Shown one piece after another: positions 24,773-40,884 of a stretch of 64,000 bases of DNA (positions are counted from its first letter, which is position 1; the number at the start of each line of letters is the position of its first letter). A program made the position numbers and the translations under genes. This DNA is from Paraburkholderia sp. Tr-20389 (GTDB lineage: Bacteria > Pseudomonadota > Gammaproteobacteria > Burkholderiales > Burkholderiaceae): positions 124,001 to 188,000 of the forward strand of contig NZ_JAAGPD010000003.1 of assembly GCF_017104565.1 (NCBI RefSeq), read 5' to 3'. The notes beneath the pieces are model-generated. The model was given only the letters and a program-made list of their open reading frames with translations. It searched no databases and was not told the origin of the DNA.

Positions 24773-26176
24773 TTAAGCCTCCAGCTGCTCCAGCACTTTC
24801 CCCTTCGTCTCGATCCCCAGAAACTGCACGACCAGCGCCGCGAGGAACGGCACGACCGCCAGCAGATAGAACGCGACATCGAGATTGCCACCGATCATCG
24901 TCTTCGACACGAGCGTCGGTGCGAAGATCGCCGCAAGCTTCAGCCACGCGCCGCCGACGCCGCAGCCGAACGCGCGGATGCTCGTCGGATACAGCTCCGG
25001 CGTGTACACATACGCCGTGATGAAGCCGCACGCGAGCCAGCCGAGCGCGAATGCGCAGCAAGTCGCGACGACATAGACGGAAGCATCATGGAACACGCCC
25101 GCCAGCGCCAGCGACAACGCGCACAACATGAACGACCAGTTGATGATCGGCTTGCGGCCCACCTTGTCGACGAGCATCGCGCACAGCAGCGAACCGAGCA
25201 CGCCCAGCACGGAAGCAGCGACGGCCAGATTCAGCGCGAGCTGCAACGGCGCGTGATACACCGTGCGGTAGATGGTCGGCAGCCACGTCGACAGACCGTA
25301 CTGGATTACGCCGCACGTCATCCAGAGCATCGCGACAGCCGCCGAGCGCTTCCAGTAAGCCTTGCCGAACAGATCGCTCATCTTGCGCTTCGGGTGACCC
25401 GCAGCCATCGACTCGAAGCTCGCCGGATCGCCCATCGGCGGCAGCGTGCCCTTCGCGGTGCGCTCAAAAGCTTGAACGGCATCGGCAGCTTCGCTCATGC
25501 GGCCTCGCTCGGCGAGCCAACGCGGCGATTCCGGTACGAGCTTGCGCAGCACGAAGAACAGGATCAGCGGCACGCCGCCGATGAAATACATCGCTTCCCA
25601 GCCGAAACGCGGCACGATCCACGCGCCGAGCGCATTCGATGCGAGCAGCCCGACCGGGAACACGATTTCGTACAGCAGCACGAAGCGTCCACGGCCATGC
25701 GCACGGCAGATTTCGTTGATGTATGTCGCGGCCACGGGCAACTCGCCGCCAAGCCCGATACCCTGCACGATACGCAGCACGAAAAACACCGCGAACGTCG
25801 GCGCGAAGCCGCACGCAATACTCGTGACGCCGATCACGCCCGAACTGAGCGCAATCGCTTTCACGCGGCCATGACGCTCCGCGTACCAAGGAAACAGAAA
25901 CGCGCCGATCAACTGGCCGGCCGAACTCGCGCCGATCAGCAACGCGACGTCCCACGGCGTCAGATGCCATTTGCCGATCAGGATCGGCAGCGTCGCGGCG
26001 ATCGCGATGACATCGAAGCCATCGAAGAACGTCGCGAGTCCGATCAGGATCCGCGCGCGCACCAGCATCGCGTTCGCGGGCAATCGTTCGAGCCGCGCAA
26101 TGATCGATCCGCGCGTGGCAGGACCGGAGACACCGGCGCTGCTCTGTGCCTCAAACGTGTTGTCGATAGTACTCAT
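24773..26176 (-). CDS. MFS transporter, aromatic acid:H+ symporter-like
   Basis: A 467-residue 12-helix carrier. The N-terminal GLATFFDGFDVIAIAATLPIL is the DGFD/D-G-x-D motif typical of AAHS and related sugar-porter-like carriers, and WYAERHGRVKAIA is the conserved loop 2-3. LGLGGELPVAATYINE marks helix 5. I use the ATG at 26176 (MSTIDNTFEAQ); the longer frame is antisense-like shadow over the reductase gene. It is the last gene of the 14-gene aromatic operon, 23 bases after the reductase, and probably imports the aromatic substrate. Confidence 0.87.
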   Translation of the reverse strand: MSTIDNTFEAQSSAGVSGPATRGSIIARLERLPANAMLVRARILIGLATFFDGFDVIAIAATLPILIGKWHLTPWDVALLIGASSAGQLIGAFLFPWYAERHGRVKAIALSSGVIGVTSIACGFAPTFAVFFVLRIVQGIGLGGELPVAATYINEICRAHGRGRFVLLYEIVFPVGLLASNALGAWIVPRFGWEAMYFIGGVPLILFFVLRKLVPESPRWLAERGRMSEAADAVQAFERTAKGTLPPMGDPASFESMAAGHPKRKMSDLFGKAYWKRSAAVAMLWMTCGVIQYGLSTWLPTIYRTVYHAPLQLALNLAVAASVLGVLGSLLCAMLVDKVGRKPIINWSFMLCALSLALAGVFHDASVYVVATCCAFALGWLACGFITAYVYTPELYPTSIRAFGCGVGGAWLKLAAIFAPTLVSKTMIGGNLDVAFYLLAVVPFLAALVVQFLGIETKGKVLEQLEA

Positions 26177-26199
26177 CCGCTGTCTCCGCCCCGTATCAG

Positions 26200-27456
26200 T
26201 TATGCAAGCGCCTTGTCGGCATCGGCCAGAGCCGCGACATCGACTGTCCGTCCCTGAGTCATCCATTTGCGCGCGAGCTTCAGGTCGCGCGGCGTGTTGA
26301 TCGCGATCACACCGCGCACGCCGCCCTCCGCGACATGGAAGAGCGTCGCGCGCCGCGCGCTCACGTCGCCGCGCACGACGAGCTGCGCGTCGGCGGGAAT
26401 GTCGCCGAGAATCTGCAGGTTCACGTCGTACTGATCCGACCAGAACCACGGAATCTCCGCATACGGCTCGAACTGGCCGAGCATGGCCTTCGCGACGACG
26501 ATCGCCTGGTTCTGCGCGTTCGCCCACGACTCCAGCCGCACACGGCGTTTCAACCACGCGCTCGGATGATTCGCGACGTCGCCGCACGCGAAGATGCGCG
26601 GGTCGCTCGTCATGCCATGCTCATCGACGACGATGCCGTCGTTCACCGGCAAGCCGGCCGCTTCCGCCAGCGACGTGTGCGGCGTGAGGCCGATGCCCGC
26701 GACGGCGAAATCGGCGTCGATAACCGTGCCGTCCGCGAGCGTCGCGCGTACTTTGGCGGCGTCCGACGGGTTCGTATCGAGCGACGCGAGCGCAGCGTTC
26801 AAACGAACATCCACGCCATTCGAGCGATGCAGGTCGAGCAAAAAGTCCGACACGGCAGGCGGCACCGAACGCGCGCACAAACGCGGCGCGCCTTCCACCA
26901 CCGTCGCCGCGACGCCGAGCTTGCGCGCCGTCGCCGCGACTTCAAGACCGATCCAGCCGCCGCCGATCACGAGCACATGCTGGCTTTTACGCAGACGCTC
27001 GCCGAGTGCCGATGCTTCATCGAGCGTGCGCAGATACGCGATGTGATCCGTCTTCACGATCGACTCAGGCAGCTTGCGCGGCGCGCCGCCCGTTGCGATC
27101 ACGAGCCGGTCGTACTGCACTTCGCGGCCCGACTGCGCGCGCACGATGCGTCGTTCGCGATCGATCTCGACAGCAACGTCCGGCTGCCACGCTTCCACGG
27201 CGAGCGAAGCGAAATCGTCGGCGGCGAACAGGCACACCGTGTCGATGTCGGCATCGCCGGACAACACCGCTTTCGACAGCGGCGGCCGTTCATACGGCAG
27301 ATGGATTTCATCCGCGATCATCACCAGACGGCCTTCGAACCCCGTCTTGCGCAGCGTCTTCACGACCCAGCCCGCAGCCTGGCCGCCGCCGATCACGACG
27401 ATGGTTTGCGGCGCGTCCGTGTGGACCGCGACGTTTGAATTGGCAGCGTCAGTCAT
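26200..27456 (-). CDS. FAD-dependent ferredoxin reductase of the Rieske oxygenase system
   Basis: A 418-residue pyridine-nucleotide-disulfide-type flavoprotein. FAD site VVIGGGQAAGWVVKTLR at about residue 20, HLPYERPPLSKAVL, NAD site LVIGGGWIGLEVAATARKLG near residue 155, and the second FAD motif DPRIFACGDVANHPS near residue 285. This is the BphA4/CamA-type reductase that passes electrons from NADH to a Rieske ferredoxin, here presumably the one encoded at 37.8-38.1 kb in the same operon. The start overlaps the VOC gene's stop by ATGACTGA, and GGAG lies 7 bases upstream. Confidence 0.87.
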   Translation of the reverse strand: MTDAANSNVAVHTDAPQTIVVIGGGQAAGWVVKTLRKTGFEGRLVMIADEIHLPYERPPLSKAVLSGDADIDTVCLFAADDFASLAVEAWQPDVAVEIDRERRIVRAQSGREVQYDRLVIATGGAPRKLPESIVKTDHIAYLRTLDEASALGERLRKSQHVLVIGGGWIGLEVAATARKLGVAATVVEGAPRLCARSVPPAVSDFLLDLHRSNGVDVRLNAALASLDTNPSDAAKVRATLADGTVIDADFAVAGIGLTPHTSLAEAAGLPVNDGIVVDEHGMTSDPRIFACGDVANHPSAWLKRRVRLESWANAQNQAIVVAKAMLGQFEPYAEIPWFWSDQYDVNLQILGDIPADAQLVVRGDVSARRATLFHVAEGGVRGVIAINTPRDLKLARKWMTQGRTVDVAALADADKALA

Positions 27457-28414
27457 GTTTGCGCTCCGTCATGAACTTGCCTTCCGGCGCCTTCGCATTC
27501 TTTTGACGGCGCGTATTGCCGTCGATGCCACCATCGATTGCCCATTCGGCGAACACGGTCGGACCCGGTTCGAATTCGCGCGGCTGCCATTCGGGCGTCA
27601 ACTGGTCTTCGTCCGCGTAGTACTCGATCAATCCGCCCGCCGGATTCTGGAAGTACCAGAAGTACGCCGACGAAACAGGGTGACGTCCCGGCCCGAGCTG
27701 CGTGTCCCAGCCGCGGCGGCTGATGTGCATGCCGCCGCCGAACACTTCGTGGATGTCGCGCACGGTGAACGCGACGTGATTCAAACCGCGCTTGCCCGTC
27801 GGCAGCTGCAACAGGAAAAGGTCGTGATGGCCGCCGTGCGGCGCGCAACGCATGAACGCGCCGCGTGCCGGATAACGGTCCGACGTTTCGAAGCCGAGCC
27901 GATCGTGATAGAACTTTTCCTGCTCCGCGAGACAGTTCGTGAAGAACACGACGTGACCCACTTCTACGGGTTCCGCGCGCTCATAGACAGGACTCGGCGT
28001 ATCGACGCGCAGCGTCTGCCCCCACACGTTCGACGGCGAGCCGTGCACGTCGACGGCACGCTTGCGTGTCACTTCAACGCGGATCGCCATGCCGTTGGGA
28101 TCGATGCAGCCGACGGCATCGTCGTTCGAGTAATAGCCTTGCGCGCCCTTCAGGCTCTCGCGATACGTGTCGAGATCGGCGACCGAGGCGACGCCCCACG
28201 TCACTTCGCGCAGCGTCGGGCCTTCTTCGAATGCGGGCGGCAACGACGCGTCGTTCGCCATCACGGCGAGCACCGTGCAGCCGTTCAGCGTTTCGAAGCG
28301 TGCGCGCGTTTCGTCGTGCGCGGTTTCCTTCATGCCCCAGTCGGCGAAAAAGCGCCGACAGGTCTCAAGATCCGTCACGCCGTAGGTAATCTGTTCAATG
28401 CCGAGAATGCTCAT
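27449..28414 (-). CDS. Two-domain VOC extradiol-type ring-cleavage dioxygenase
   Basis: A 321-residue protein with two vicinal-oxygen-chelate modules (about residues 5-130 and 145-300), the layout of catechol 2,3-dioxygenase / dihydroxybiphenyl dioxygenase. Candidate Fe(II) ligands are present in order: His in EVGHVVFFTN, His in GLNHVAFTVRDI, and Glu in GGLIEYYADEDQ. It should open a catechol-like ring at the meta position, acting on the product of the Rieske oxygenase. Start ATG at 28414; 13 bases separate it from the aldehyde dehydrogenase gene. Exact substrate unknown. Confidence 0.83.
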   Translation of the reverse strand: MSILGIEQITYGVTDLETCRRFFADWGMKETAHDETRARFETLNGCTVLAVMANDASLPPAFEEGPTLREVTWGVASVADLDTYRESLKGAQGYYSNDDAVGCIDPNGMAIRVEVTRKRAVDVHGSPSNVWGQTLRVDTPSPVYERAEPVEVGHVVFFTNCLAEQEKFYHDRLGFETSDRYPARGAFMRCAPHGGHHDLFLLQLPTGKRGLNHVAFTVRDIHEVFGGGMHISRRGWDTQLGPGRHPVSSAYFWYFQNPAGGLIEYYADEDQLTPEWQPREFEPGPTVFAEWAIDGGIDGNTRRQKNAKAPEGKFMTERKHD

Positions 28415-28427
28415 GTTGCGTGCCTTT

Positions 28428-29924
28428 TCAGTTCGCCCACGCGAGCGGGGCGTCGTTCAAGCCCCAGTAGAGGCTCTTTTGCTGCATGTACTCACGAATG
28501 CCGAGGCGGCCTTTCTCGCGGCCCATGCCGCTTTCCTTCCAGCCCGAGAACGGCGTCGAAATCGAGAACAGCTTGTAGGTGTTGATCCAGATCGTGCCCG
28601 CTTCGAGCGCGCGCGCGACGCGCCAGGCGCGCTTGTAGTCGCGCGTCCAGATGCCCGCTGCGAGACCGAAGACGCTGTCATTCGCTTCCGCGATCAGCGA
28701 CGCTTCATCGTCGAAGGGCATCGCGACCAGCACCGGTCCGAAAATTTCTTCCTGACAGATGCGCGCACTGTTCGACAGGCCTTCGAGGATCGTCGGCTGA
28801 TAGAAGAAGCCTTGCTCGCGGTTGTTGCCGACGGGCCGCTCGCCGCCGCACAGCAGCCGTCCGCCCTCTTCGAGGCCGAGCGCCACATAGCGCTCCACCG
28901 ACTCGCGATGCTTCGCGGTAATCAGCGGACCCATCTGCGTTTGTTCGCTTGCGGGATCGCCGACGCGCAACTGGCGCGCCTTCTCCGCGAGCCGCTTCAT
29001 GAACTCGGGATAGATCGACCGCTGCACGAACAGACGCGAACCGGCGATGCACGCCTCGCCCGACGAACTGAAAATGCCGTACAGCACGCCGTTCACGGCA
29101 TGATCGAGATCGGCGTCTTCGAAGACCATCGTCGGCGACTTGCCGCCGAGTTCGAGCGACACGGGCATCAGCTTGTCCGCTGCGATGCGCGCGATGCCGC
29201 GCCCCACGTCCGTGCCGCCCGTGAACGACACTTTCTTCACGAGCGGGTGACGCACCAGCACATCGCCGATCACCGAACCCTTGCCGGGCAGCACGCTCAA
29301 CACGCCCTTCGGCACGCCCGCTTCCTCACAGATACGAGCGAGCGCGAGTGACGCCAGCGGTGTCACTTCGGCGGGCTTCAGCACGACGGCATTGCCGGCG
29401 GCCAATGCAGGCGCAAGCTTTTGCGCATCCGATGCGATCGGCGAATTCCACGGTGTGATCGCCGCGATCACGCCGATCGGCTCATGCACGCTCATCGTCA
29501 GATAGTCGCCGCGCGAAGGCGTGACATCTTCGTCGAGCGTTTCGAGGCAAGCCGCGAAATAGCGGAACGTGTTCGCCGCGCTCGCCACGAGCACGCGCGT
29601 TTCGCCGATCGGCTTGCCGTTGTCGCGGCGTTGCAGTTGCGCGAGCACTTCGTGCTTCGCCATGATCAGATCGGCGATGCGGTACAGGATCAGCGCGCGC
29701 TGATGCGGCTTCAGACCGGACCAGTTCGGTTTGCGCCACGCGGCGTCGGCGGCTTCGACGGCTTCGCGCGCGTCGTCGGCATCGGCCGTCGTGATCTCGG
29801 CGTTCACCGAGCCGTCGGCGGGATAGACGCTCGCGTACAGCGCGCCGCGGCCACGCTTCCATTCGCCGCCGACGAAGATATCGGCAGTAGGCACGAGAGA
29901 CGAAATGATGTCGGTATGAGGCAT
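28428..29924 (-). CDS. Aldehyde dehydrogenase
   Basis: A 498-residue NAD(P)-dependent aldehyde dehydrogenase. It shows AAITPWNSPIASDAQKLAPA, FTGGTDVGRGIA (cofactor), the catalytic Glu in LELGGKSPTMV, and the nucleophile Cys in SSSGEACIAGSR; the C-terminal FSGWKESGMGREKG is typical. ATG at 29924 has AAGGAAG upstream; the longer open frame lies over the AspDH gene and is a shadow. In this operon it may oxidise a semialdehyde from ring cleavage or the aldehyde produced by the ThDP enzyme. Confidence 0.88.
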   Translation of the reverse strand: MPHTDIISSLVPTADIFVGGEWKRGRGALYASVYPADGSVNAEITTADADDAREAVEAADAAWRKPNWSGLKPHQRALILYRIADLIMAKHEVLAQLQRRDNGKPIGETRVLVASAANTFRYFAACLETLDEDVTPSRGDYLTMSVHEPIGVIAAITPWNSPIASDAQKLAPALAAGNAVVLKPAEVTPLASLALARICEEAGVPKGVLSVLPGKGSVIGDVLVRHPLVKKVSFTGGTDVGRGIARIAADKLMPVSLELGGKSPTMVFEDADLDHAVNGVLYGIFSSSGEACIAGSRLFVQRSIYPEFMKRLAEKARQLRVGDPASEQTQMGPLITAKHRESVERYVALGLEEGGRLLCGGERPVGNNREQGFFYQPTILEGLSNSARICQEEIFGPVLVAMPFDDEASLIAEANDSVFGLAAGIWTRDYKRAWRVARALEAGTIWINTYKLFSISTPFSGWKESGMGREKGRLGIREYMQQKSLYWGLNDAPLAWAN

Positions 29925-29935
29925 GTCGTACTTCC

Positions 29936-30781
29936 TTAGATCACGCAGCGGGCCGCGCGATTGCGCAACGCACGGATCGCGCTGAACGCGGTCAATGCAG
30001 AGGTCTTCGGGTTGTCGGGCAGCGGCTTGCCGCTCATTTCGAGCGACATCTCGCCGAATGCGCCGCGCGCGACGATGCGATGCACGTTGCGCGTCACGGC
30101 GGGATCGGCGATCAGGCGCACCGTCGTCTGATCGAGGCCGAGGCCCGCGAGCGCAACCGTCGCCGCAACATTCGCGTTCTTCGGATAGAGATGCGCTGCT
30201 TCGCGCGCGCTGCCTTCGAAGATCACGCGCGCTTCCGTCAGCGTCTGCAGATCGCAGACCTGTTCCGCAGGCGTGCCGAGCCAACCCATAGGCGGCTTGC
30301 GTCCGATGTATTGCACTTCGTCGAGACCGCCGAGCTTCGCGGCAGCGAGCGCATCGATACCGCCGATCGCGCCCGACAGCAGCGTGACGGTTGCGTGACC
30401 TTCATCGGCGGCTGCGTTCAGCGCTTCGAGCAACGAGAGATCCGACAGCGCGCCGATCGACGCCACCGCGCAATCCGTACCCGCCTTCAGCAGCGGCACG
30501 ACGTGACTGACGAGCGCACCATGTCCCGCGCATTCGAGCGCGAACTGCGGACGCGACTTCAGTGCATCGACCGACCACACGACGTCCACATCCGGACCGA
30601 CCTGCTCGCGCACGGCATCGGCCTGATGTTCGGGCACGATCACATGCGACACATGCACTTGCGGGTCGGCGGCGACGGCACGATACACGGTTTGACCGAT
30701 CGCGCCGAAGCCGATCATCGCGATGTCAATGGGCACATGATTCATGGCGGCTCCGTTCGCGGCATACGCTGCGTTAGGCAT
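29936..30781 (-). CDS. L-aspartate dehydrogenase-like NAD(P)-binding protein
   Basis: A 281-residue protein of the NadX/aspartate dehydrogenase family: [17 protein letters not shown] at the N-terminus, [34 protein letters not shown], and the signature [19 protein letters not shown]; a His follows in [15 protein letters not shown]. The type enzyme converts aspartate to oxaloacetate imine; a different imine or keto acid is possible here. The ATG at 30781 overlaps the ThDP-enzyme stop (ATGCCTAA) and has AGGAG 7 bases upstream, but an internal ATG at 30745 with GGAG upstream would give the usual 269-residue length. Its place in an aromatic operon is unusual. Confidence 0.8.
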
Positions 30782-32432
30782 GTTCCGGCTCCTGCTTGCG
30801 CACCGGCGGGCCTGCAAACGCCGTTGCGAACTGACCCACCGACAGCATGTCGACTTCGACCATCACAGGACCCGTCTTCGACATGCCTTCGCGAACGATC
30901 TCATCGGCCTGATCGAGCGACGAGATCCGATAGTGCGTGAGGCCGAAGCTCGCGCAGAACTGCGCGAAGTCCGGTTGATGCAGTTGCACGTAGCAGCGGC
31001 GGCCGCCGTAGTGCGCGTCCTGAATGTTGCGGATCACGCCGTAGCATTGGTCGTTCATCAGCACGATCATCACGTTCGCGTTTTCCTGCACGGCCGTCAC
31101 CAGTTCGCCGACGTTGACCATCAGGCCGCCGTCGCCGACCAGGCAAACCGTCTTCGCCGCCGCATCCGCGAGCGCTGCGCCGATCGCCATCTGGATACCC
31201 TGGCCGATACCGCCGCCGAGCGCATGCACGCCCGCGCGCGGCTGGAAGATCTTCAGCATGCGGTTGCCCCACGTGCTGTTCGAGATCGTCACGTCGCGCA
31301 CCCAGTTGTAGTCGCGGCCCACTGCGTGTTGCAACACGTCGACGAGGCGCTTGTACGGTCCGAGACCCTTGCCCGTTTCCGCGACGGCGACTTCACGCGT
31401 GGCGGCGAGATCGCCTGCGAATGCCGGGTCGACCTTCATGCGGCCTTCGAGCAGCGTCGCGAGCTGATCGAGCACGGCGGCTGCATCGCCATGAACGAAG
31501 AGGTCGTTGCGATAGCCGCGGTTGTCGGCGAGCGCGTCGGCATCGACACGGAACAGCGGCTGCGGCAGCGCGAGCTTGTACTTGAGCGTCTCGTTGCCGC
31601 GCAGACGCGAGCCGACCACGAGCAGCGCATCGCAGGTCTTGTAGAACTTCTCGACGGTCGGCTGCACATTGAATGCGCCGAGCGTCGCGGGATGATCTTC
31701 GGGCAGCACGCCGCGGCCCTGCACGCTCGTCACGACGCCGAAGCCAAGCTTCACCAGACGTTCGACCTGCGCGCGCGCATGACGCGTGCCGCCACCGAGC
31801 CACAGCAACGGACGCTTCGCCTTCGCGAGTTCGCCGGCGAGCTGTTCGACGCGCTTCGTGTCGTGCGTGAGTGTGTTGATATGCGGCGCGCTCATGTCGG
31901 CGGGCCACTCGGTTTCCGCAGCCTGAATGTCGATCGGAATTTCGACGCTGACGGGACCGCTCGGCGCCGTCTGCGCGACGCGCACGGCTTCGCGCACCGT
32001 GGCGAGCGCGGTCTCGACGGAACGCACGCGGTACGCCGCCTTCGAGATCGACGAGAGCATCGTCAATTGATCCGGTGCTTCGTGGATGTACGCGAGGTCC
32101 TGATCCAGATACGTCGTTTCGATCTGGCCGGTGATATGCACGAGTGCCGTGCCTGCCGTCAGCGCTTCGACCATCGCGCCCGCTGCGTTGCCGGCAGCCG
32201 TGCCCGTGCTCGTGAACGCGACGCCGAGGCCGCCCGACACGCGCGCGAGACCATCGGCCATGTTCAGCGCGCCGGCTTCGCCGCGTGCGCCGACATAGCG
32301 AATGTTGCCGCGCGTGTTGATGGCGTCGAGGATCGGCATGTTGTGAATCGAGATCACGCCGAATGCGGTCTTGACGCCGCACTGTTCGAGGAAAGCGGCG
32401 ATCAGTTCGCCGACGGTGGTTTTGTTAGACAT
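30774..32432 (-). CDS. Thiamine-diphosphate-dependent enzyme (acetolactate synthase / benzoylformate decarboxylase superfamily)
   Basis: A 552-residue three-domain ThDP enzyme. The N-terminal PYR domain has the catalytic Glu in [20 protein letters not shown]; the middle domain contains [18 protein letters not shown]; the C-terminal PP domain has the ThDP/Mg motif [20 protein letters not shown] followed by [12 protein letters not shown]. It should decarboxylate or ligate a 2-oxoacid. The start ATG overlaps the SDR stop (ATGTCTAA). In this pathway it could act on an arylglyoxylate or a 2-oxo acid from ring cleavage; the substrate is unknown. Confidence 0.85.
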
Positions 32433-33231
32433 GACGTGCAACGCCTCCGGAAACATCGATATGGCTTCCCGTCGTGTACGACGACAGGGGTGTAGCGAGA
32501 TAAAAGAGCGCTTGCGCGGCTTCTTCAGGACGGCCGAAGCGGCCGAGCGGAATGTTCTTCGTACGCGCGAGTTCGCCGGTCCAGTCTTCCCAGCTTTGAC
32601 CGGGCTGCGCCTGCGTCTGATAACGGCGACGCCATTGACCCGACTCGACGATGCCGATCAGGATCGAGTTCACGCGAATGCGTTGCGGCGCGAGTTCGAC
32701 GGCCAGCGACTTGATCAGGTTCTGCACGCCGGCGCGCGCCGACGAGGTCGCGACCATGTGCGGCTCGGGCTGCAACGCGAGCAGCGAATTCACGCAGACG
32801 ATCGAACCGTTGCCTTGCTGCGCGGCTTGCGTGAGCATCGGCAGAAACGCGCGCGTCGGGCGGATCACGCTGAAGTACTTCAGATCGAGTTCTTCGCGCC
32901 ACGCTTCGTCGGTCGTATCCGCGAAGGTGGACACGCGGCCCTGGCCTGCGTTGTTCACGAGCATGTCGGTGCGGCCGAAACGTTGCTGCACGTCGTTCGC
33001 GAACGCGGCGACGTCGTCCGCGTCGAGCACGTTGCAGCGCGCGGCGAGCAGTTGCGCGTCGGGAAACTGCTTGCGCAACGATGCTTCAGCGCTTGCGAGA
33101 CGATCGGTGTCGCGTCCGCAGATCGCCACCGATGCGCCCGCGCGCAGAAAAAGTTCGGCGGTCGCGAGGCCGATGCCGGACGAACCGCCCGTCACCACTG
33201 CAACCTGTCCTGTCAAATCGATCTGGATCAT
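32425..33231 (-). CDS. SDR-family protein with replaced catalytic Tyr/Lys
   Basis: A 268-residue Rossmann protein with a normal cofactor site (VTGGSSGIGLATAELFL) and NNAGQGRVSTFADT, so it belongs to the classical SDR family. The Ser is present (IVCVNSLLALQPEPH), but where Y-x-x-x-K is expected it reads TSSAR in MVATSSARAGVQNLIKSL, so both Tyr and Lys seem replaced by Thr and Arg. Either the activity is altered or it is a binding/structural homologue. It lies between the IclR gene (1-base overlap) and the ThDP gene (8-base overlap) and is clearly cotranscribed. Confidence 0.8.
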   Translation of the reverse strand: MIQIDLTGQVAVVTGGSSGIGLATAELFLRAGASVAICGRDTDRLASAEASLRKQFPDAQLLAARCNVLDADDVAAFANDVQQRFGRTDMLVNNAGQGRVSTFADTTDEAWREELDLKYFSVIRPTRAFLPMLTQAAQQGNGSIVCVNSLLALQPEPHMVATSSARAGVQNLIKSLAVELAPQRIRVNSILIGIVESGQWRRRYQTQAQPGQSWEDWTGELARTKNIPLGRFGRPEEAAQALFYLATPLSSYTTGSHIDVSGGVARHV

Positions 33232-34091
33232 CAGAGCCCCAATGCCTTCATGTATCTGCTTTCCGCCGACGGCCGGTAATTCAGCCGCAGCGACAGTTGC
33301 TCGGCCGCGTTGCGCACCTTGTCGATCAGGCCGCTGTCGAGCAGCGATGCATCGATGTGTCCACGCGGAATGGTCGTCGTGATGACGGCGGCGATGCGGC
33401 CCGTGTCGTTGCGCACGGGCGCGGAAATCACTGAAATGCCGTTTTCGAAAGACGATTCGCTGATCGCGAAGCCGCGCATTGCATCGTCCTTCACGCGTTC
33501 ATACAGTTCTTCGACGGTTTCGGGCGTGTGCTTCGTGAAGCGTTCCAAGTTCTGCTCCGGATACAGCGCACGCAGTTCGTCCAAAGACAGATCGCCCATC
33601 AGCACATGGCCGTGCGTCGTGGCATGCGCGGGCAGCCGCGTCCCGACATTCACCTTCACCGAACTGAACACGGGCGCATGGCTTTGCGCTTTCGCGACGA
33701 ACACCACGTCCCGTCCGTCGCGGATCACGATATGCGTCGTCAAGCCCGTCGCATCACGCAATGCTTCGATCAGCGGCAGGCCGAGATCGGTGAGTTCGAG
33801 CGAACTCAGATATTCAAAACCAAGGCGCAGCACGGCGACGCCCAGGCGATAGTTGCGGTCGCGATCCGCACGCTCCAGAAAGCCGAGCGATTCGAGCGTC
33901 TGCAAGAGACGAAACACCGTCGTGCGCGGAATGCCGAGACGCTTCGACAGTTCGGGCGCACCGAGCACCGGTTCGCGCGGCGAAAATTCCGTCAGGATGC
34001 GCAGGCCGCGTTCGAGACCAGGCACGCGATAGTTCGCCTCGCTGCGGTCCTCTTCTGCTTCGGGTGCAGTGCCCGTCAATTCGGGGGTCAT
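33231..34091 (-). CDS. IclR-family regulator inside the aromatic operon
   Basis: A 286-residue regulator: HTH from about residue 24 (VPGLERGLRILTEFS, GAPELSKRLGIPRTTVFRLL), then the IclR effector domain (LGLPLIEALRDATGLTTHIV, GTRLPAHATTHGHVLMGDLS, GISVISAPVRNDTGRIA). It overlaps the hydrolase gene by ATGA and the SDR gene by one base, so it is made as part of the operon it probably regulates. A second IclR protein at 39.7-40.7 kb is closely similar over its whole length, including the rare stretch LGFEYLSSLELTD. Confidence 0.87.
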   Translation of the reverse strand: MTPELTGTAPEAEEDRSEANYRVPGLERGLRILTEFSPREPVLGAPELSKRLGIPRTTVFRLLQTLESLGFLERADRDRNYRLGVAVLRLGFEYLSSLELTDLGLPLIEALRDATGLTTHIVIRDGRDVVFVAKAQSHAPVFSSVKVNVGTRLPAHATTHGHVLMGDLSLDELRALYPEQNLERFTKHTPETVEELYERVKDDAMRGFAISESSFENGISVISAPVRNDTGRIAAVITTTIPRGHIDASLLDSGLIDKVRNAAEQLSLRLNYRPSAESRYMKALGL

Positions 34092-34984
34092 GCTTTACTC
34101 CATTGGCCATCGCTCGTGCGGCAGAAGGCGTCGATGAGCGCGGTGCAGGCATCGCCTGCTTCGATATACCCCGCGTGGCCCGCGCGCGGGATGATCTGCA
34201 GGCGCGTGCGCGCAGCTTGCGCGATGCGCTCGCATGAAGCAGGCGGCGTAATCGTGTCCTCTGCGCCGACCGCAACGGCGATGCGGCCGTCGAACTTCGC
34301 GACATCGCTCGCGAGGTCTGCATTGGCGAGCAGATGCGTCGCCTGCGCGTAGCCCTGCGGCACGATGCGCGCCATGTTCCAGCGCACCCAGTCGCGCGAT
34401 GCTTCGTCGGCATGCGGCGACAACATGTTGGCGCTGCGTTGTTGTGCGAGTCCTTGTGGGCCGAGTTCGGCGAGCATCGCGAGGCGGCTGTCGCGTTTCG
34501 ATGCGCGCACGTCCTCCGGCGCTGCGCCGTAGCCCGCTGCAGGCGACAGCAGCAACAGACCGGCAACGCGCTTTCCCTGCAACACCGCGAACGAACCCGC
34601 GATGATCGCGCCCAGCGAATGCCCGACCAGCACGCAGCGTTCGATGCCGAGCGCGTCGAGCCATTCGTTCAGCGCACTTGCGTATTCATCCGCTTGCGGT
34701 GACGGCGATGCGACGCAGGTCGATTCGCCATAGCCCGGCGCGTCCCACGCGAACACGCGGCGCGTCGTGCCGAGCGCTTCGAGTTGTTGCACCCACGAAG
34801 CGGCGCCCGAGCCGATGCCGTGCAGCAGTACCAGCGGCAACGTGCCATCAGCGTTGGCCTGACCTGCTTCGCGATAACCGATCGCGCGTTGCGGCGCCGT
34901 CTCGATCAGCCGTGCCGGGAAGTGCGAGAGGCGCGTCTCCAGCGTGGCGTTTCGATCTTCGGTGACGGACATTGATGCGGACAT
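34088..34984 (-). CDS. Alpha/beta hydrolase, possible meta-cleavage product hydrolase
   Basis: A 298-residue alpha/beta hydrolase. Oxyanion motif LVLLHGIGSGAASWVQQLEA, nucleophile Ser in VLVGHSLGAIIAG, acid Asp in VAVGAEDTITPP and catalytic His in PRAGHAGYIEAG appear in the proper order. Size and motifs resemble the C-C hydrolases that cut meta-cleavage products (BphD/MhpC group) and related esterases. In this operon it would act after the VOC dioxygenase. Start could also be the Met four codons downstream (MSVTED). It is 44 bases after the cupin gene. Confidence 0.82.
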   Translation of the reverse strand: MSASMSVTEDRNATLETRLSHFPARLIETAPQRAIGYREAGQANADGTLPLVLLHGIGSGAASWVQQLEALGTTRRVFAWDAPGYGESTCVASPSPQADEYASALNEWLDALGIERCVLVGHSLGAIIAGSFAVLQGKRVAGLLLLSPAAGYGAAPEDVRASKRDSRLAMLAELGPQGLAQQRSANMLSPHADEASRDWVRWNMARIVPQGYAQATHLLANADLASDVAKFDGRIAVAVGAEDTITPPASCERIAQAARTRLQIIPRAGHAGYIEAGDACTALIDAFCRTSDGQWSKA

Positions 34985-35028
34985 TTGCGTGACTTCGTGA
35001 ATGAGGGCTATCGGCTATTCGAACCGCG

Positions 35029-35568
35029 TTACTTCGCGAGATCGCGCTTGATCTTCGCGAGCGGCGAATCGGGCGGATACGTCGGCGTGATCGGCTTCGG
35101 CGAACCGAGCATCACGCACATCAGCGCGTCTTCTTCACCGACGTTGATTTCCGTGCGATACACGCCAGGCGGCACCGAGATCAGATCGCGTTCGCCGAGC
35201 ACGGCTTCCCACGTTTCGCCGTCACGTTCGCAGATCACTTTCATCTTGCCGCGCAGCACGAAGAAGATTTCTTCGACGTCGGTATGGATGTGGCTCGGGC
35301 CGATGTTGCCGGCGGGAATCACCATCGTCGAGAACGTGAAGCCGCCTGCGGGCACCGTGTTCATGTCCTTCGCGACGCCCGTGCCGCCCGTGCCGACATA
35401 GCGCATCTGCGCGCGGCGATACTTCGGGTCGTAGTCGGCCTGGAACTTCAGTGCGTCCCAGTCATAGCGGCGCGTTTCGAAGCGTGCGACACGCGAGTCC
35501 ATCCATTGATCGAAGCTTGCTTCCGCGGGTTGAGCCCACGATTTGAGTTCGAGATCGGCGTCGGCCAT
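35029..35568 (-). CDS. Cupin-domain protein
   Basis: A 179-residue single-domain cupin. The first cupin motif is GPSHIHTDVEEIFFVLRGKM (His-x-His ... Glu metal set) and the second is around VPPGVYRTEINVGEEDALM, without a clear second metal His. About 60 residues rich in aromatic and charged residues precede the barrel. It could be a small dioxygenase, isomerase or binding protein; the family does not tell. The start at 35568 (MADADLELKS) has GGAGAAAAC upstream. Cotranscribed with the SDR before and hydrolase after it. Confidence 0.8.
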   Translation of the reverse strand: MADADLELKSWAQPAEASFDQWMDSRVARFETRRYDWDALKFQADYDPKYRRAQMRYVGTGGTGVAKDMNTVPAGGFTFSTMVIPAGNIGPSHIHTDVEEIFFVLRGKMKVICERDGETWEAVLGERDLISVPPGVYRTEINVGEEDALMCVMLGSPKPITPTYPPDSPLAKIKRDLAK

Positions 35569-35602
35569 TGTTTTCTCCATGTGGTTTGCTCGATGAGCAA
35601 GG

Positions 35603-36361
35603 TCAATTCATCACGAAGCCGCCGTTCACGGGCAGCAACTGGCCCGTCACGAAACGGGCGGCATCCGTTAGCAGGAACAGCACGGGGCCCGTCACGTCGT
35701 CGGGTACCTGCGCGCGCGTCAATGCGCGGCCTTTCAGGTAGTACTCGTGGCGTTCGGCAGGCACGTAGGCCGTGGCTTCGACTTCCGTGAGTCCCGGCGC
35801 GATGGCGTTCACCGTGATGCCGTGCGCGCCGAATTCGCGCGCCAGCGAGCGCGTCATCGAAATCACCGCGCCCTTGCTCGCCACATACGCGAGCAGCTTC
35901 GGCGCACCCCACATCGCCGTATCGGAGGCGATGTTGACGATCGCGCCGCGCTGCGAGTCGCGCAGATGCGGCAGCGCTGCCGTGCACATCAGCCAGGTGC
36001 CGCGCACGTTGACGTTCATCACGGCATCCCATGTATCGGCGGTCAGCTCTTGCGCGAAGCGTCCGCCCGAATTCGTGATCGCGGCGTTGTTGATCAGCGC
36101 GTCGATGCCGCCCATCGTTTGCGCGGCTTGCGCAACGAACGCAGCGATGCTGTCGGGACTCGCGAGATCGAGCGGAACGAACTGAACGTTCGCGCCGAGC
36201 TTGTCTGCAAGCGCACGGCCTTCGTCTTCGAGCACATCGCCGAATACGACTTGCGCCTGCGCGTTGGCGAGCGCCTCGATGAATGCAGCACCGAGTCCGC
36301 GCGCGCCGCCCGTTACGACGACGCGCCGTCCGCTCAAACCGGAGACCATGACCTCAGGCAT
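35603..36361 (-). CDS. SDR-family dehydrogenase (possible cis-dihydrodiol dehydrogenase)
   Basis: A 252-residue classical SDR with complete catalytic set: VVVTGGARGLGAAFIEAL, Asp at the end of strand 2 (VVFGDVLEDEG, NAD preference), LINNAAITNSGG, Ser in NIASDTAMWG and YVASK in LLAYVASKGAVISMTRSL; it ends VTGQLLPVNGGF. As the gene right after the Rieske oxygenase alpha subunit, it is the best candidate for oxidising the cis-diol product to a catechol. It overlaps the oxygenase stop by ATGCCTGA. Confidence 0.84.
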   Translation of the reverse strand: MPEVMVSGLSGRRVVVTGGARGLGAAFIEALANAQAQVVFGDVLEDEGRALADKLGANVQFVPLDLASPDSIAAFVAQAAQTMGGIDALINNAAITNSGGRFAQELTADTWDAVMNVNVRGTWLMCTAALPHLRDSQRGAIVNIASDTAMWGAPKLLAYVASKGAVISMTRSLAREFGAHGITVNAIAPGLTEVEATAYVPAERHEYYLKGRALTRAQVPDDVTGPVLFLLTDAARFVTGQLLPVNGGFVMN

Positions 36362-37442
36362 GAGCGTGCCCCGTCGATGCTTGCGCGCCTGCTTCCGCCT
36401 GCTTCGCGCTGAACGCTTCGAGATCGGCGAAATGCTGTTGCGCGCGTTGACGCAACATGCGGCGCACGCGCGTCATGCCGACGTCGTGCTGATAAAGGAA
36501 TTCGTGTTCGCGCGCATTCGGCGCAAGGCTTTCGAGCACATAGCGGTCCTGCTCGAGCACTGCCCAGTGCAGGCCTTCCAGACGGTTGCGATACAGGAAG
36601 CGCCATGCGTCGCGCTGCCAGCCGCTGACCTTGCGCGTGCGCCAGAAGTAGACCTGGCAGTTGTCGTTGTCGACGGGCACCGCGAAGCCGATGATGCCGA
36701 AGCTGCCGCCGGGACCGAACTTCTTCTTGTACGGAATGGCGAGACGCATCCACAGGCAACCCGTTTCGCCGAGTTCGACCCAGTCGAAATTGATGTCGCG
36801 CTGACCGATCTTTTCGAACACGAGGCCGGTCTCGGTTTTGCGCACGCGCATGTCAGCCTGCTTGTCGCCTTCGGCCATCGAATGCGACGTCGCGTGCAGA
36901 TACGCGCCGTGCATCGGATCCATCACGTTGTCGATCGCGTACTGATAGTTGCACTTCCAGTTCGACACGCACAGGAACTGCGAGTATTCGGGCCCAACGA
37001 GTTCATCGGGCAACACGAGCGGCGTCGGCTCCTTGTGAGCATCGTCGCCGAACCACAGAAAGATCGCGCCCGCGTGTTCTTCCACGGGATACGACTTCAC
37101 GCACTTCTGGCCTTCGAGCGGACACGCCGATACTGCCGGCACGCTTTGCACGGTGCCCGAGCCGTCGACTTCGATGCCGTGATACCAGCACGCAACGCGA
37201 TTGCCGAGATTCCAGCCGAGCGACAGACGCGCGCCGCGATGCGGGCAGCGATCTTCGAGCGCGTGGACTTTGCCTTCCTGATCGCGCCACAGCACGATCT
37301 GCTCGCTCAGGCGCGTCAGGCCGATGGGCGCATTGCTCACCTGCCAGCTGGGCGCGACGGGATACCAGTAGTTCTTGATGCCGCGTTCGAGATAAGCCTG
37401 AACGGGATCGGCTGCGGGACTCGTTGTATTGAGGGACGTCAT
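36354..37442 (-). CDS. Rieske non-heme iron oxygenase, alpha subunit
   Basis: A 362-residue aromatic-ring oxygenase alpha subunit. The Rieske [2Fe-2S] ligands are C66, H68, C85 and H88 (CPHRG ... CWYHG). The mononuclear iron site is in NVMDPMHGAYLH, with H178 and H183 and an upstream Asp. No beta-subunit gene is present, so it is probably an alpha3 homotrimer, as in the carbazole- or phthalate-type oxygenases. Ferredoxin and reductase genes are in the same operon, giving a three-component system. ATG at 37442 with GGAG upstream (CGGAGTTTCCCC). Substrate cannot be read from the sequence. Confidence 0.9.
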   Translation of the reverse strand: MTSLNTTSPAADPVQAYLERGIKNYWYPVAPSWQVSNAPIGLTRLSEQIVLWRDQEGKVHALEDRCPHRGARLSLGWNLGNRVACWYHGIEVDGSGTVQSVPAVSACPLEGQKCVKSYPVEEHAGAIFLWFGDDAHKEPTPLVLPDELVGPEYSQFLCVSNWKCNYQYAIDNVMDPMHGAYLHATSHSMAEGDKQADMRVRKTETGLVFEKIGQRDINFDWVELGETGCLWMRLAIPYKKKFGPGGSFGIIGFAVPVDNDNCQVYFWRTRKVSGWQRDAWRFLYRNRLEGLHWAVLEQDRYVLESLAPNAREHEFLYQHDVGMTRVRRMLRQRAQQHFADLEAFSAKQAEAGAQASTGHAHA

Positions 37443-37485
37443 GGGGAAACTCCGTGTTCGCTTGGGTCGTGGGTTCGCGGGACGT

Positions 37486-37797
37486 TTATTCCGCGAGCAG
37501 TCGCAGTTCCGCGGCGAGACGCTCTTCGCTCCACTGCGCGCCTTCCGGCGTGCGGAAGCCATTCCGGTTCAGCCCCGCCACCACCTCGTTCAGTTCGATC
37601 GCACCCGCTTCGAACACTTGCTCCAGCGCATCGCCGAAGTCGTTCTCGTACTGCGTCGGCTCAGCCTTGCGGGTCTGCCAGATCATGTTTTCGGTCTGGC
37701 CCGGCTTCTCGATCACGCCCTTGCCCGCGACGTTGTTCGGCTGCGGCGCGAGCCACGGCTTCAGAAAGGGATTGAAGTTCACGACGACTTCTTTCAT
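37486..37797 (-). CDS. Small recombinase-like HTH protein in the oxygenase operon
   Basis: A 103-residue protein between the ferredoxin and oxygenase genes. The C-terminal third (LNEVVAGLNRNGFRTPEGAQ then WSEERLAAELRLLAE) looks like the recombinase-type HTH of serine integrases (LNxxGxxTPxGxxW), whereas the N-terminal 60 residues (NPFLKPWLAPQPNNVAGKG, GQTENMIWQTR) are not known to me outside such operons. It is too small for a recombinase. It may be an assembly factor, small subunit or regulator for the oxygenase. ATG at 37797, one base after the ferredoxin stop. Confidence 0.75.
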   Translation of the reverse strand: MKEVVVNFNPFLKPWLAPQPNNVAGKGVIEKPGQTENMIWQTRKAEPTQYENDFGDALEQVFEAGAIELNEVVAGLNRNGFRTPEGAQWSEERLAAELRLLAE

Positions 37798-37798
37798 G

Positions 37799-38116
37799 TC
37801 ATTCCACCTTGATCTGGATTTCTTCACCCGCGAGGCGCACGGCGTACGTCTTCAGGTCGCGGCCGCCCGGCTCTTTCATACATTTCCCCGTCGGGATATG
37901 GAAAACGGCTTCGTGCAGCGGACATTCGACCGTGTCGCCGTCGATGAAGCCTTGCGTCAGCAACGCATACGCATGCGGGCAGACGTTCTCGAGCGCGTAG
38001 AGCTCATCGCCCACCTTGTAGATGCCGATCTCCTTGCCGTCGCCGAGCTTGAACTCGACGGGCGAGTCTTCCGAAAGCGCACCGGCGTGTCCGGCGCAAA
38101 GCCACTGTTCACTCAT
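37799..38116 (-). CDS. Rieske-type ferredoxin of the ring-hydroxylating oxygenase
   Basis: A 105-residue soluble Rieske ferredoxin with [2Fe-2S] ligands C46, H48, C65 and H68 (CPHAY ... CPLHEAVF). It has no signal peptide. It carries electrons from the flavoprotein reductase to the oxygenase alpha subunit. It is the first gene of the 14-gene minus-strand operon, which runs from here to the MFS gene ending at 24773 with gaps of at most 44 bases and many overlaps. Upstream is the divergent promoter region shared with a porin gene. Confidence 0.9.
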   Translation of the reverse strand: MSEQWLCAGHAGALSEDSPVEFKLGDGKEIGIYKVGDELYALENVCPHAYALLTQGFIDGDTVECPLHEAVFHIPTGKCMKEPGGRDLKTYAVRLAGEEIQIKVE

Positions 38117-38154: not shown

Positions 38155-38170
38155 GTTCCATATACGGAAC
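38155..38170. promoter_or_regulatory. Inverted-repeat operator candidate upstream of the oxygenase operon
   Basis: GTTCCATATACGGAAC (GTTCC-N6-GGAAC) lies 39 bases upstream of the ferredoxin start. Its left half TTCCATA recurs at 38408-38414 in the porin promoter, paired with TGGAAC at 38436-38441. The spacing and sequence are compatible with an IclR-type site; two IclR regulators are nearby. Confidence 0.55.
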
Positions 38171-38377
38171 GTCAGTTTATGTATGGTCATTATAGGAGCC
38201 TGTTCGGAAGGACAAAATAAAAATTCGGCGCCTCCAGGGAAAACACCGACAGATGCATTTCTGCAACGTAAGAGCCCCGTAAAGCGGGCCAAAACAAGGC
38301 TTGCTGCGCATAAAGTGCGCGCGCGTACGGCACCGAATGTCATCTGATAAATGAGGGTTTTCACCGTCGCAAAAATT

Positions 38378-38441: not shown

Positions 38442-38555
38442 AAAGAGCGGATAGCTTCGACAGCAGGCGACTAAAGGCCATCCACAGAAATGACAGGCAA
38501 AGGGAAGAGCAACCGGCGTGTCCGGCAATCGACCACACGATCAGGAGTACCAAGG

Positions 38556-40679: not shown

Positions 40680-40884
40680 CGTGAAGATAGAGATGATAGC
40701 GCGAAGGTTCAGCGGTGCTGGAGGTTCGGCAAGCCGCACCGCCGTCGGCTTGCACGCCTTCCTCATTCATCCCTCCTCCTCACCGTACAAACCCTTGTCT
40801 TGGAGAAAAAATATTTTCACAACATAAATTTCATGTAAATTCACTTTCATTCCGGCTCGCCGTCAACAGACCATTCCGACACCG

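Follow-up and report, generated by a model that had tools for sequence, protein, structure and literature searches.

A compact operon with a recurrent gene order

The window, 64,000 nucleotides of a Paraburkholderia-like genome, holds 14 genes that form one compact unit on the minus strand, from position 38116 to position 24773 (all operon genes below lie on this strand). All 14 genes claimed in the earlier note are found where it placed them; its gaps of at most 44 bases hold if the hydrolase starts at 34984, whereas our start sites give spacings of −8 to +56 bases. The components that it named are likewise present, but its list lacks an IclR-family regulator and a small HTH_62 protein.

The 14-gene order is widespread among many soil bacteria and is no one-off. 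Specifically, the identical order, together with a divergent porin gene (38490..39629, plus strand; PF13609) and a second IclR-family regulator gene (39723..40766, minus strand; profile matches), recurs in 55 of the 80 named related loci, indicating that the block is not a product of chance. A nine-enzyme core, comprising the Rieske oxygenase, SDR1, SDR2, the extradiol enzyme, the ThDP decarboxylase, the aldehyde dehydrogenase, the cupin, the hydrolase and the aspartate dehydrogenase, is found together in 30 of 40 loci examined, from proteobacteria and one Streptomyces; of the remainder, five are fragments, one is truncated where its record stops, one is a partial second copy and three are incomplete clusters. 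Unlike the core, the electron carriers and transporters differ between loci. Core enzymes are also encoded in Klebsiella and Acinetobacter, where the cluster genes are annotated piecemeal, for example as vanillate demethylase, aspartate dehydrogenase and acetolactate synthase. In most alphaproteobacterial clusters (Novosphingobium excepted), identity is just 27–41% for the VOC, cupin and hydrolase matches, and in the Streptomyces cluster it is 32% for the aspartate dehydrogenase match, so paralogues are possible there. A Variovorax match to the ThDP enzyme lies outside any such cluster. According to one report, A. baumannii genes A1S_0954, A1S_0956, A1S_0957 and A1S_0958, which are tied to the cluster of that species by the order of annotations and not by sequence, are 2.2–3.7-fold up on mucin (PMC5757984).

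The first gene is preceded by the palindrome GTTCC-N6-GGAAC (38155..38170), the sole such site in the window, and by a putative −10 box, TATAAT, read from the sequence (38189..38194, minus strand). Of 57 regions lying ahead of the operon, 56 contain the pattern TTCC-N6-GGAA, against a mean of 0.3 and a maximum of 2 in shuffles, and 54 have TATAAT at a distance of 5–40 bases before the palindrome. The palindrome is probably an operator, and an IclR protein probably acts there. The IclR-family regulator encoded within the operon (33231..34091; PF09339 and PF01614) resembles the PcaR/PcaU/PobR group, with scores under cut-off. Genome-wide, the palindrome has ten sites, compared with four for the reversed control; eight of the nine further sites lie in possible coding frames, and we therefore claim no wider regulon. 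The last gene encodes an MFS importer of the aromatic-acid/H+ symporter group (24773..26176; TIGR00895, 201.1 bits, under cut-off).

Encoded enzymes and their active-site residues

The oxygenase was described earlier as lacking a beta subunit, and indeed we find a VanA_C-type alpha and no beta among the 14 genes. The alpha subunit (36354..37442), proposed here as a kynurenate 7,8-dioxygenase, matches PF00355 (80.1 bits) and PF19112 (56.2 bits), both above gathering, and its Rieske CxH...CxxH motif and D-x2-H-x4-H iron-site residues are invariant in 60 of 60 sequences; by these marks, it is a Rieske non-heme iron oxygenase of the VanA_C group. Its closest relative in the PDB is DdmC (88.6 bits, residues 22–186), a demethylase, and for this reason dihydroxylation stays a proposal. 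Electrons would reach it through a 105-residue Rieske [2Fe-2S] ferredoxin (37799..38116; PF00355, 65.4 bits), for which AndAb is the top NCBIfam model (80.7 bits, under the cut-off of 150), and an FAD ferredoxin reductase (26200..27456; PF07992 and PF14759) that is HcaD/AndAa-like, under the model cut-offs.

Between the ferredoxin and alpha genes lies the gene for the HTH_62 protein, a 'recombinase-like HTH' of 103 residues (37486..37797; PF20552, 93.1 bits). It travels with the oxygenase: a Vibrio locus lacks both HTH_62 and alpha. The predicted structure (mean pLDDT 74.6) contains confident helices at residues 49–63, 69–78 and 91–102 and a low-confidence arm at residues 19–41, and comparison with the PDB gave no significant fold match (best E 2.2). 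An HTH_62 match in one further genome, G384, lies in a frame that, read by eye, is serine-recombinase-like and does not belong to this cluster.

The two SDR enzymes differ in their catalytic residues. SDR1 (35603..36361; profile matches), a proposed dihydrodiol dehydrogenase, carries the YxxxK pair of a classical SDR dehydrogenase (Y159 and K163), which is kept in 60 of 64 aligned rows; the remaining four have T and R, like SDR2. SDR2 (32425..33231; NF005468, 478.9 bits, above cut-off) has T162 and R166 in place of this pair in all 63 sequences and thus fails the classical SDR test; we propose that it is an enone C=C reductase. The two-domain VOC enzyme (27449..28414), a candidate 7,8-dihydroxykynurenate 8,8a-dioxygenase, keeps H154, H197, H213, H245, Y254 and E264 in 49 of 49 sequences. 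In alignment with homoprotocatechuate 2,3-dioxygenase, H154, H213 and E264 fall on the 2-His-1-Glu iron site, and H197, H245 and Y254 on the second sphere. Judged by these residues it is a type I extradiol dioxygenase; it scores under the NCBIfam equivalog cut-offs for HpaD (67.9 versus 321.4 bits) and catechol 2,3-dioxygenase (61.1 versus 320.2 bits). The ThDP-dependent enzyme (30774..32432; NF005470, 952.7 bits, above cut-off) is a proposed 2-oxoacid decarboxylase, its third-best model being 5-guanidino-2-oxopentanoate decarboxylase (278.7 bits, under cut-off). The aldehyde dehydrogenase (28428..29924) scores 577.6 bits with PF00171, and its best NCBIfam model is BADH, under cut-off.

The cupin (35029..35568; PF07883), a single-domain protein proposed to act as a pyridine-ring-opening dioxygenase, keeps H93, H95 and E99 in 61 of 61 sequences and is weakly similar to the quercetinase QueD (E 1.3e-4). 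The alpha/beta hydrolase (34088..34972; PF00561/PF12697), a putative amide hydrolase, has S119, D239 and H266 in all 62 sequences and resembles the PcaD, HsaD and BphD models, each under cut-off. The protein called 'AspDH-like' in the earlier note (29936..30745) passes the NCBIfam equivalog cut-off (NF009826, 540.6 versus 479 bits), keeps H222 in 61 of 61 sequences and has a match in 80 of 80 named loci; a RidA imine deaminase is present in nine of these 80 and in four of 24 others. The protein is 46% identical to the aspartate dehydrogenase of the Klebsiella cluster, which equals the assayed KpnAspDH in length (254 residues), both termini and the GxGxxA motif; the Cupriavidus cluster enzymes share termini with ReuAspDH. 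These relatives were assayed in work aimed at amino-acid production, where KpnAspDH was active on oxaloacetate and its activity on pyruvate was 3.9% (PMC5554190). Because the Klebsiella cluster version matches the published enzyme, ours is very probably a true L-aspartate dehydrogenase, and the nitrogen therefore probably exits on a four-carbon dicarboxylate.

These enzymes bear on two alternatives. The substrate might be a simple aromatic acid conjugated to aspartate, which the hydrolase would release for the aspartate dehydrogenase while the Rieske oxygenase, SDR1 and the VOC enzyme degrade the aromatic part. The core hydrolase with its intact triad and the specificity of the dehydrogenase relatives for aspartate/oxaloacetate among the substrates tested suit this idea, to which we give a slim chance, since it leaves the ThDP enzyme, SDR2 and the cupin, all of them core, without a task, and profile searches of the 14 genes detect neither a hydratase nor an aldolase such as a normal meta pathway has. 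That absence also weighs against demethylation or hydroxylation of an ordinary monocyclic aromatic acid followed by meta cleavage, with the aspartate dehydrogenase serving NAD precursors or nitrogen balance. Although the alpha subunit belongs to the VanA_C/DdmC group, which includes demethylases, and the hydrolase models mentioned above would agree with a monocyclic acid, the occurrence of the dehydrogenase in every named locus is hard to square with a side role, and this is the reading that we consider least probable.

A candidate route for kynurenate catabolism

We propose, with a probability of roughly 0.6, that the operon catabolises kynurenate (4-hydroxyquinoline-2-carboxylate) and that relatives resembling xanthurenate and quinaldate would enter from the side. 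The kynurenate quinoline branch of tryptophan breakdown was worked out as biochemistry in Pseudomonas in about 1959–1963, in the order dioxygenation, dihydrodiol dehydrogenation, extradiol cleavage, side-chain reduction, decarboxylation and aldehyde oxidation; to our knowledge, it is known as enzyme activities, without genes. The operon offers one candidate gene for each of these steps. The earlier note could match the set to no named pathway, a statement that gives way to this branch. It was right to describe an operon for aromatic degradation that looks complete. As for its unknown substrate, we found no literature assigning these genes to one; the set nevertheless fits the quinoline branch. 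The reading draws on the gene set, the gene order, the active-site residues and the published aspartate dehydrogenase activity of relatives. The proximity of the ThDP enzyme to the aldehyde dehydrogenase and the likeness of the importer to aromatic-acid symporters (under cut-off) also speak for it, as do the lack of a hydratase or aldolase in the 14-gene set, the RidA genes at some loci and the co-occurrence of the two accessory hydroxylases described below.

In the proposed route, the Rieske oxygenase with its ferredoxin and reductase would dihydroxylate the benzene ring at C7/C8 (step 1), and SDR1 would re-aromatise the product to 7,8-dihydroxykynurenate (step 2). The VOC enzyme would then cut between C8 and C8a, giving a dihydroxypicolinate with a 2-oxobut-3-enoate side chain (step 3), the double bond of which SDR2, having lost the alcohol-dehydrogenase catalytic pair, may reduce (step 4). 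Removal of CO2 by the ThDP enzyme (step 5) and oxidation by the aldehyde dehydrogenase (step 6) would leave a propionate side chain. The cupin would open the 4,6-dihydroxypyridine by cleaving its C4–C5 bond (step 7), the hydrolase would split the resulting amide into 2-oxoglutarate and iminosuccinate/aminofumarate (step 8), and the aspartate dehydrogenase would turn the latter into aspartate (step 9). The ten carbons would thus be accounted for as CO2, C5 (2-oxoglutarate) and C4 (aspartate/oxaloacetate), with one step per enzyme. Both the substrate and the step order are what we infer, above all for steps 4, 7 and 8, and the use of the cupin, hydrolase and aspartate dehydrogenase as ring-opening steps is our own addition to the classical pathway. 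We agree with the earlier suggestion that the ThDP and aspartate dehydrogenase enzymes point to nitrogen and a 2-oxoacid; the amino or 2-oxoacid side chain that it placed on the substrate is unnecessary in this route, because ring cleavage makes the 2-oxoacid and the nitrogen sits in the ring. Glutarate was also considered as the five-carbon product and was dropped, since a CoA-transferase/acyl-CoA dehydrogenase pair beside one locus (L134) matched models that are not specific for glutarate, and the gene set is better explained by 2-oxoglutarate formation through the cupin and hydrolase.

The linkage to tryptophan-to-kynurenine genes that we expected, as a supporting feature and not a required one, is not seen. 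Tryptophan dioxygenase is encoded in ten of 15 cluster genomes. In nine of them it and the cluster are on different contigs; in the tenth (G355), some 11 kb of unrelated genes separate the two. The 130 loci searched gave no match to tryptophan dioxygenase or kynureninase, save in two loci fetched as tryptophan dioxygenase hits. No papers were found for the P. aeruginosa loci PA3502–PA3511, which play no part in the argument. In another report, P. aeruginosa kynU mutants build up kynurenate to 100 µM (PMC4938989); if that strain carries the cluster, the build-up would count against the kynurenate reading.

In other genomes, two accessory enzymes would supply this core: xanthurenate would enter through an FAD phenol hydroxylase and quinaldate through a molybdenum hydroxylase. 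Orthologues of the FAD monooxygenase (at least 60% identity; next best 45%) occur in ten of 398 genomes, each one of the 15 that have the cluster, and orthologues of the Mo hydroxylase (63–64%) in two of 398, both with the cluster; these lines were set after seeing the gaps (60 versus 45% and 63 versus 41%), and at the search's own limit the queries match 47 and five genomes, respectively. Hypergeometric estimates of the co-occurrence take no account of common descent. The Vibrio locus retains the FAD monooxygenase and shows neither alpha nor SDR1 nor HTH_62; a search of its plasmid for alpha at E 1e-40 found no match. The Mo hydroxylase adjoins cluster genes in pNK84, in G026 and in one of the 80 named loci (L122); it is nearer 4-hydroxybenzoyl-CoA reductase than quinoline 2-oxidoreductase, which counts against the proposal.

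The accessory genes also lend something to the idea that the true substrate of the core is not kynurenate but a substituted form of it or some other bicyclic N-heteroaromatic carboxylate. Other 4-oxygenated quinoline-2-carboxylates would be open to the same sequence of dihydroxylation, proximal extradiol cleavage, decarboxylation and aspartate release. The FAD monooxygenase gene of the genome to which the window belongs (contig C24, 69197..70309) has genes for a Rieske protein and a VanB-like reductase next to it, and the corresponding Rieske protein in G020 has the LigXa_C domain of O-demethylases, hinting at methoxylated relatives. In pNK84, a second alpha/ThDP/VOC set stands next to a Mo hydroxylase, so specificities may differ between sets. 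We nonetheless regard this alternative as unlikely: kynurenate and xanthurenate are common tryptophan products, and the presence of the cluster in several classes and in a Streptomyces points to a natural substrate that is common.

Returning to kynurenate, we tentatively suggest, at somewhat less than even odds, that the operon represents the missing kynurenate-pathway gene set and belongs to a modular funnel for tryptophan-derived quinoline carboxylates. The nine-enzyme core would have exchangeable entries: the Rieske oxygenase with HTH_62 for kynurenate, the Mo hydroxylase for quinaldate, and, for both xanthurenate and its methyl ether, the FAD hydroxylase, which in Paraburkholderia stands beside a LigX-type Rieske protein.

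Implications and comparison with known systems

In animals, tryptophan gives rise to kynurenate and xanthurenate as signalling compounds, and bacterial kynurenate degradation has long been known as chemistry. If the kynurenate reading is correct, several enzyme activities known to us without sequences would become testable genes. On the funnel reading, three orphan activities would be assigned genes, and HTH_62 would emerge as a small protein, not recognised before, that is linked to a Rieske oxygenase. Kynurenate breakdown would extend to Klebsiella and Acinetobacter, and genomes and metagenomes, these genera included, could be read for the capacity to destroy kynurenate and xanthurenate. Mesophilic bacterial aspartate dehydrogenases, studied for amino-acid production (PMC5554190), would gain a physiological, catabolic role.

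The operon shares features with several known systems. Naphthalene-type upper pathways combine a Rieske oxygenase, a dehydrogenase and proximal extradiol cleavage beside the fused ring, whereas the operon has an alpha without beta, and a ThDP enzyme and putative reductase where the hydratase-aldolase, absent from the 14 genes, would be. The dicamba O-demethylase DdmABC is an alpha-only oxygenase with separate ferredoxin and reductase; DdmC, the closest solved relative of our alpha, resembles it at 88.6 bits over residues 22–186, and we know of no extradiol/ThDP pathway that it feeds. In arginine catabolism, AruI and KauB likewise pair a ThDP 2-oxoacid decarboxylase with an aldehyde dehydrogenase, acting on an aliphatic guanidino substrate with no ring chemistry; the AruI-type model is the third best for our ThDP enzyme, under cut-off. 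Pyridoxine catabolism has no Rieske or ThDP step, and in it an alpha/beta hydrolase splits an N-acyl enamine after a flavoenzyme has opened the pyridine ring, much as the operon hydrolase is proposed to split an N-acyl enamine after pyridine opening.

Conservation of the gene block

Fourteen genes occupy positions 38116 to 24773 on the minus strand of the window, as the earlier note had described, with intergenic gaps of −8 to +56 bases. HMM scans assign them, from gene 1 to gene 14, to a ferredoxin, an HTH_62 protein, a Rieske oxygenase alpha subunit (VanA_C), an SDR, a cupin, an alpha/beta hydrolase, an IclR protein, a second SDR, a ThDP enzyme, an aspartate dehydrogenase (AspDH), an aldehyde dehydrogenase (ALDH), an extradiol-type VOC enzyme, an FAD ferredoxin reductase and an MFS transporter. 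A porin gene diverges from the operon (from 38490), followed by a second IclR gene (from 39723). The source genome (9.0 Mb, 129 contigs) contains 19 Rieske-domain matches, three of them on the contig of the window. The nearest named relatives of the ThDP protein are from Paraburkholderia (97% in P. piptadeniae).

Matches above the cut-off of the ThDP family model, NF005470, are present in 70 of 150 genomes from this bacterial family, and cluster genes are present in all 20 stretches inspected around NF005470 matches, one of which is cut by a contig end. The search for the same gene order that the earlier note had proposed, performed on 80 named relatives taken from 411 found, recovered the window's exact order of all 14 genes, porin and second IclR gene in 55 of the 80 loci; the remaining 25 are cut or differ. 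Related clusters occur in annotated records of Klebsiella pneumoniae, Acinetobacter baumannii, Novosphingobium, Paracoccus, Pseudosulfitobacter and Nitratireductor, and one occurs in an unannotated Streptomyces record.

All nine core enzymes (alpha, the canonical SDR1, VOC, SDR2, ThDP, ALDH, cupin, hydrolase and AspDH) are matched in 30 of 40 scored loci, a set that includes several near relatives or loci of the same genome. Among the other ten, five are fragments (L179, L180, L185, L186 and L187), L135 is cut by the end of its record, and L132 is a partial second copy in plasmid pNK84; L139 has neither an alpha nor an SDR1 match, L181 has no ALDH match, and L171 (genome G344) has no cupin or hydrolase match in a 20-kb stretch and a displaced AspDH. 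The ferredoxin and FAD reductase are outside the core; VanB-like reductases are found in 15/80 named and 8/24 other loci, and a flavodoxin in 4/24 other loci.

In Klebsiella aerogenes LR134124.1 (L141), the cluster ALDH is annotated as two adjacent genes, perhaps owing to a frameshift or sequencing error. The mobilizable plasmid pNK84 of Caballeronia sp. NK8 (L132/L142) carries the full 14-gene operon, a Mo hydroxylase and a second partial set, comprising a ferredoxin with the same accession and a new alpha, ThDP enzyme and VOC enzyme.

HTH_62 (PF20552) is present in 16 of 398 phylum genomes. These include all 15 genomes that have the ThDP family; the match in the sixteenth sits in a serine-recombinase-like frame. 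The predicted HTH_62 structure comprises three confident helices and a disordered arm, and a search with this fold returned no significant match (best E 2.2), leaving strict company with alpha as the only clue to its role. Clusters with a 50–55% alpha variant encode a protein of ~108 residues without a Pfam match (L108:15058-15384; matches in L110, L112–L115, L119, L125, L126, L128, L038, L046, L047 and L135), and HTH_62 matches in these clusters appear to lack the N-terminal arm.

Active-site residues and a candidate operator

The Rieske and iron-site residues of alpha are kept in 60/60 sequences, the six extradiol residues of the VOC enzyme in 49/49, and the hydrolase triad in 62/62. SDR1 has YxxxK in 60 of 64 rows. 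In SDR2, T162 and R166 replace Y and K in 63/63 sequences, which makes a role as an ordinary alcohol dehydrogenase unlikely; it is a putative C=C reductase. The cupin keeps H93, H95 and E99 (61/61), with no fourth histidine in the usual place in an alignment judged by eye, and AspDH keeps H222 (61/61) in an alignment that includes the solved enzymes of Archaeoglobus and Thermotoga. In most alphaproteobacterial clusters, Novosphingobium excepted, the matches to the VOC enzyme, cupin and hydrolase show 27–41% identity, and in Streptomyces the AspDH shows 32%; orthology is uncertain for some such distant matches.

A palindrome, GTTCC-N6-GGAAC, is kept before the first gene, downstream of TATAAT. 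Its core, TTCC-N6-GGAA, is present in 56 of 57 regions, window counted (shuffle mean, 0.3), and the spacer sequence varies between regions, as expected for an operator. The full palindrome occurs once in the window and ten times in the genome, versus four for the control. Eight of the nine other genomic sites lie inside possible coding frames, and the regulator may therefore be dedicated to this operon. An IclR protein probably binds the palindrome.

Assayed AspDH relatives and putative side entries

PMC5554190 reports assays of AspDHs from several bacteria, including K. pneumoniae, Delftia and Ralstonia eutropha. The K. pneumoniae cluster encodes an AspDH of 254 residues that starts MKKVMLIGY, ends CRELA and contains GxGxxA, in agreement with the primers, length and motif of that paper; the strains are different. 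Most Cupriavidus cluster AspDHs start MLHVSM and end HAVSI, as ReuAspDH does, and the L171 AspDH shares its TAIAI ending with DelAspDH, a weaker match confined to that one end. In the same paper, KpnAspDH turns over oxaloacetate at 69 per second with 3.9% activity on pyruvate, and ReuAspDH had low activity in the authors' own hands.

Two further enzymes may provide side entries. An FAD aromatic monooxygenase, which is related to 3-hydroxybenzoate 6-monooxygenase with a score below cut-off, has orthologues (identity of 60% or more) in 10 of 398 genomes, all ten among the 15 ThDP-family genomes (47/398 at a looser limit). A xanthine-dehydrogenase-type Mo hydroxylase, scoring best as 4-hydroxybenzoyl-CoA reductase below cut-off, adjoins cluster genes in pNK84 and has orthologues (63–64%) in two of 398, both among the 15 (5/398 at a looser limit). 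Both identity lines were set after the gaps were seen, and the hypergeometric co-occurrence values take no account of shared ancestry.

In genome G026, the Mo hydroxylase begins ~3.5 kb past the cluster (cluster end in L037), with three other genes between. Beyond it come genes for a CoxG protein and an IclR protein, and then the FAD monooxygenase. In the source genome, the FAD monooxygenase belongs to a group unlinked to the cluster (contig C24, L212), where its neighbors are an IclR gene and a porin as well as a Rieske protein, a VanB-like reductase and an MFS transporter. The counterpart of this Rieske protein in G020 carries LigXa_C, a domain known from O-demethylases. A Vibrio nigripulchritudo locus has the other core enzymes and an FAD monooxygenase, which in this record is spread over two frames; alpha, SDR1 and HTH_62 were not seen there, and a search of its plasmid at E 1e-40 found no alpha. 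This locus fits entry by hydroxylation of a phenol such as xanthurenate to the same catechol. Xanthurenate, its methyl ether and quinaldate are candidate side-entry substrates.

Kynurenate as the candidate substrate

The earlier note had left the substrate unassigned, and the open-access literature, to which the search was largely confined, yielded none among the papers listed that gives these genes one; an earlier assignment may exist. We infer that it is kynurenate, with a probability of roughly 0.6. Several observations count against this reading. Tryptophan dioxygenase is present in 10 of 15 cluster genomes, on another contig than the cluster in all except G355, and in 9 of 11 genomes of a second, Rhodobacterales-type set, again on other contigs except in G355. 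There, tryptophan dioxygenase and kynureninase-like genes (G355:C1:1244726-1246700, L185) lie ~11 kb upstream of the cluster, separated by mostly unrelated genes. Neither enzyme was matched in 130 loci, save two chosen as tryptophan dioxygenase hits. The nearest solved relative of alpha is a demethylase, which also counts against kynurenate, as does, provided that this strain carries the cluster, the build-up of kynurenate in a P. aeruginosa kynU mutant (PMC4938989).

In favor of kynurenate, its pyridine half holds the aspartate C–N skeleton (COOH, C2–N, C3 and C4), which would account for AspDH in the cluster and for a RidA-type imine deaminase in some clusters (9/80 named and 4/24 other loci). 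Under the kynurenate scheme, a fused-ring catechol would be cut beside the ring junction, yielding a 2-oxobut-3-enoate side chain, which the reductase, 2-oxoacid decarboxylase and aldehyde dehydrogenase would convert to propionate. Opening of the second ring would fall to the remaining enzymes, the cupin and hydrolase, with an oxidative C4–C5 cut and then amide cleavage giving 2-oxoglutarate. All nine enzymes would thereby receive a task, and ten carbons would be accounted for.

Naphthalene degraders remove the 2-oxobut-3-enoate side chain with a hydratase-aldolase, whereas none is encoded among the 14 genes. In the kynurenate pathway, side-chain reduction, 2-oxoacid decarboxylation and aldehyde oxidation lead to propionate, and the conversion proposed here would be alike.
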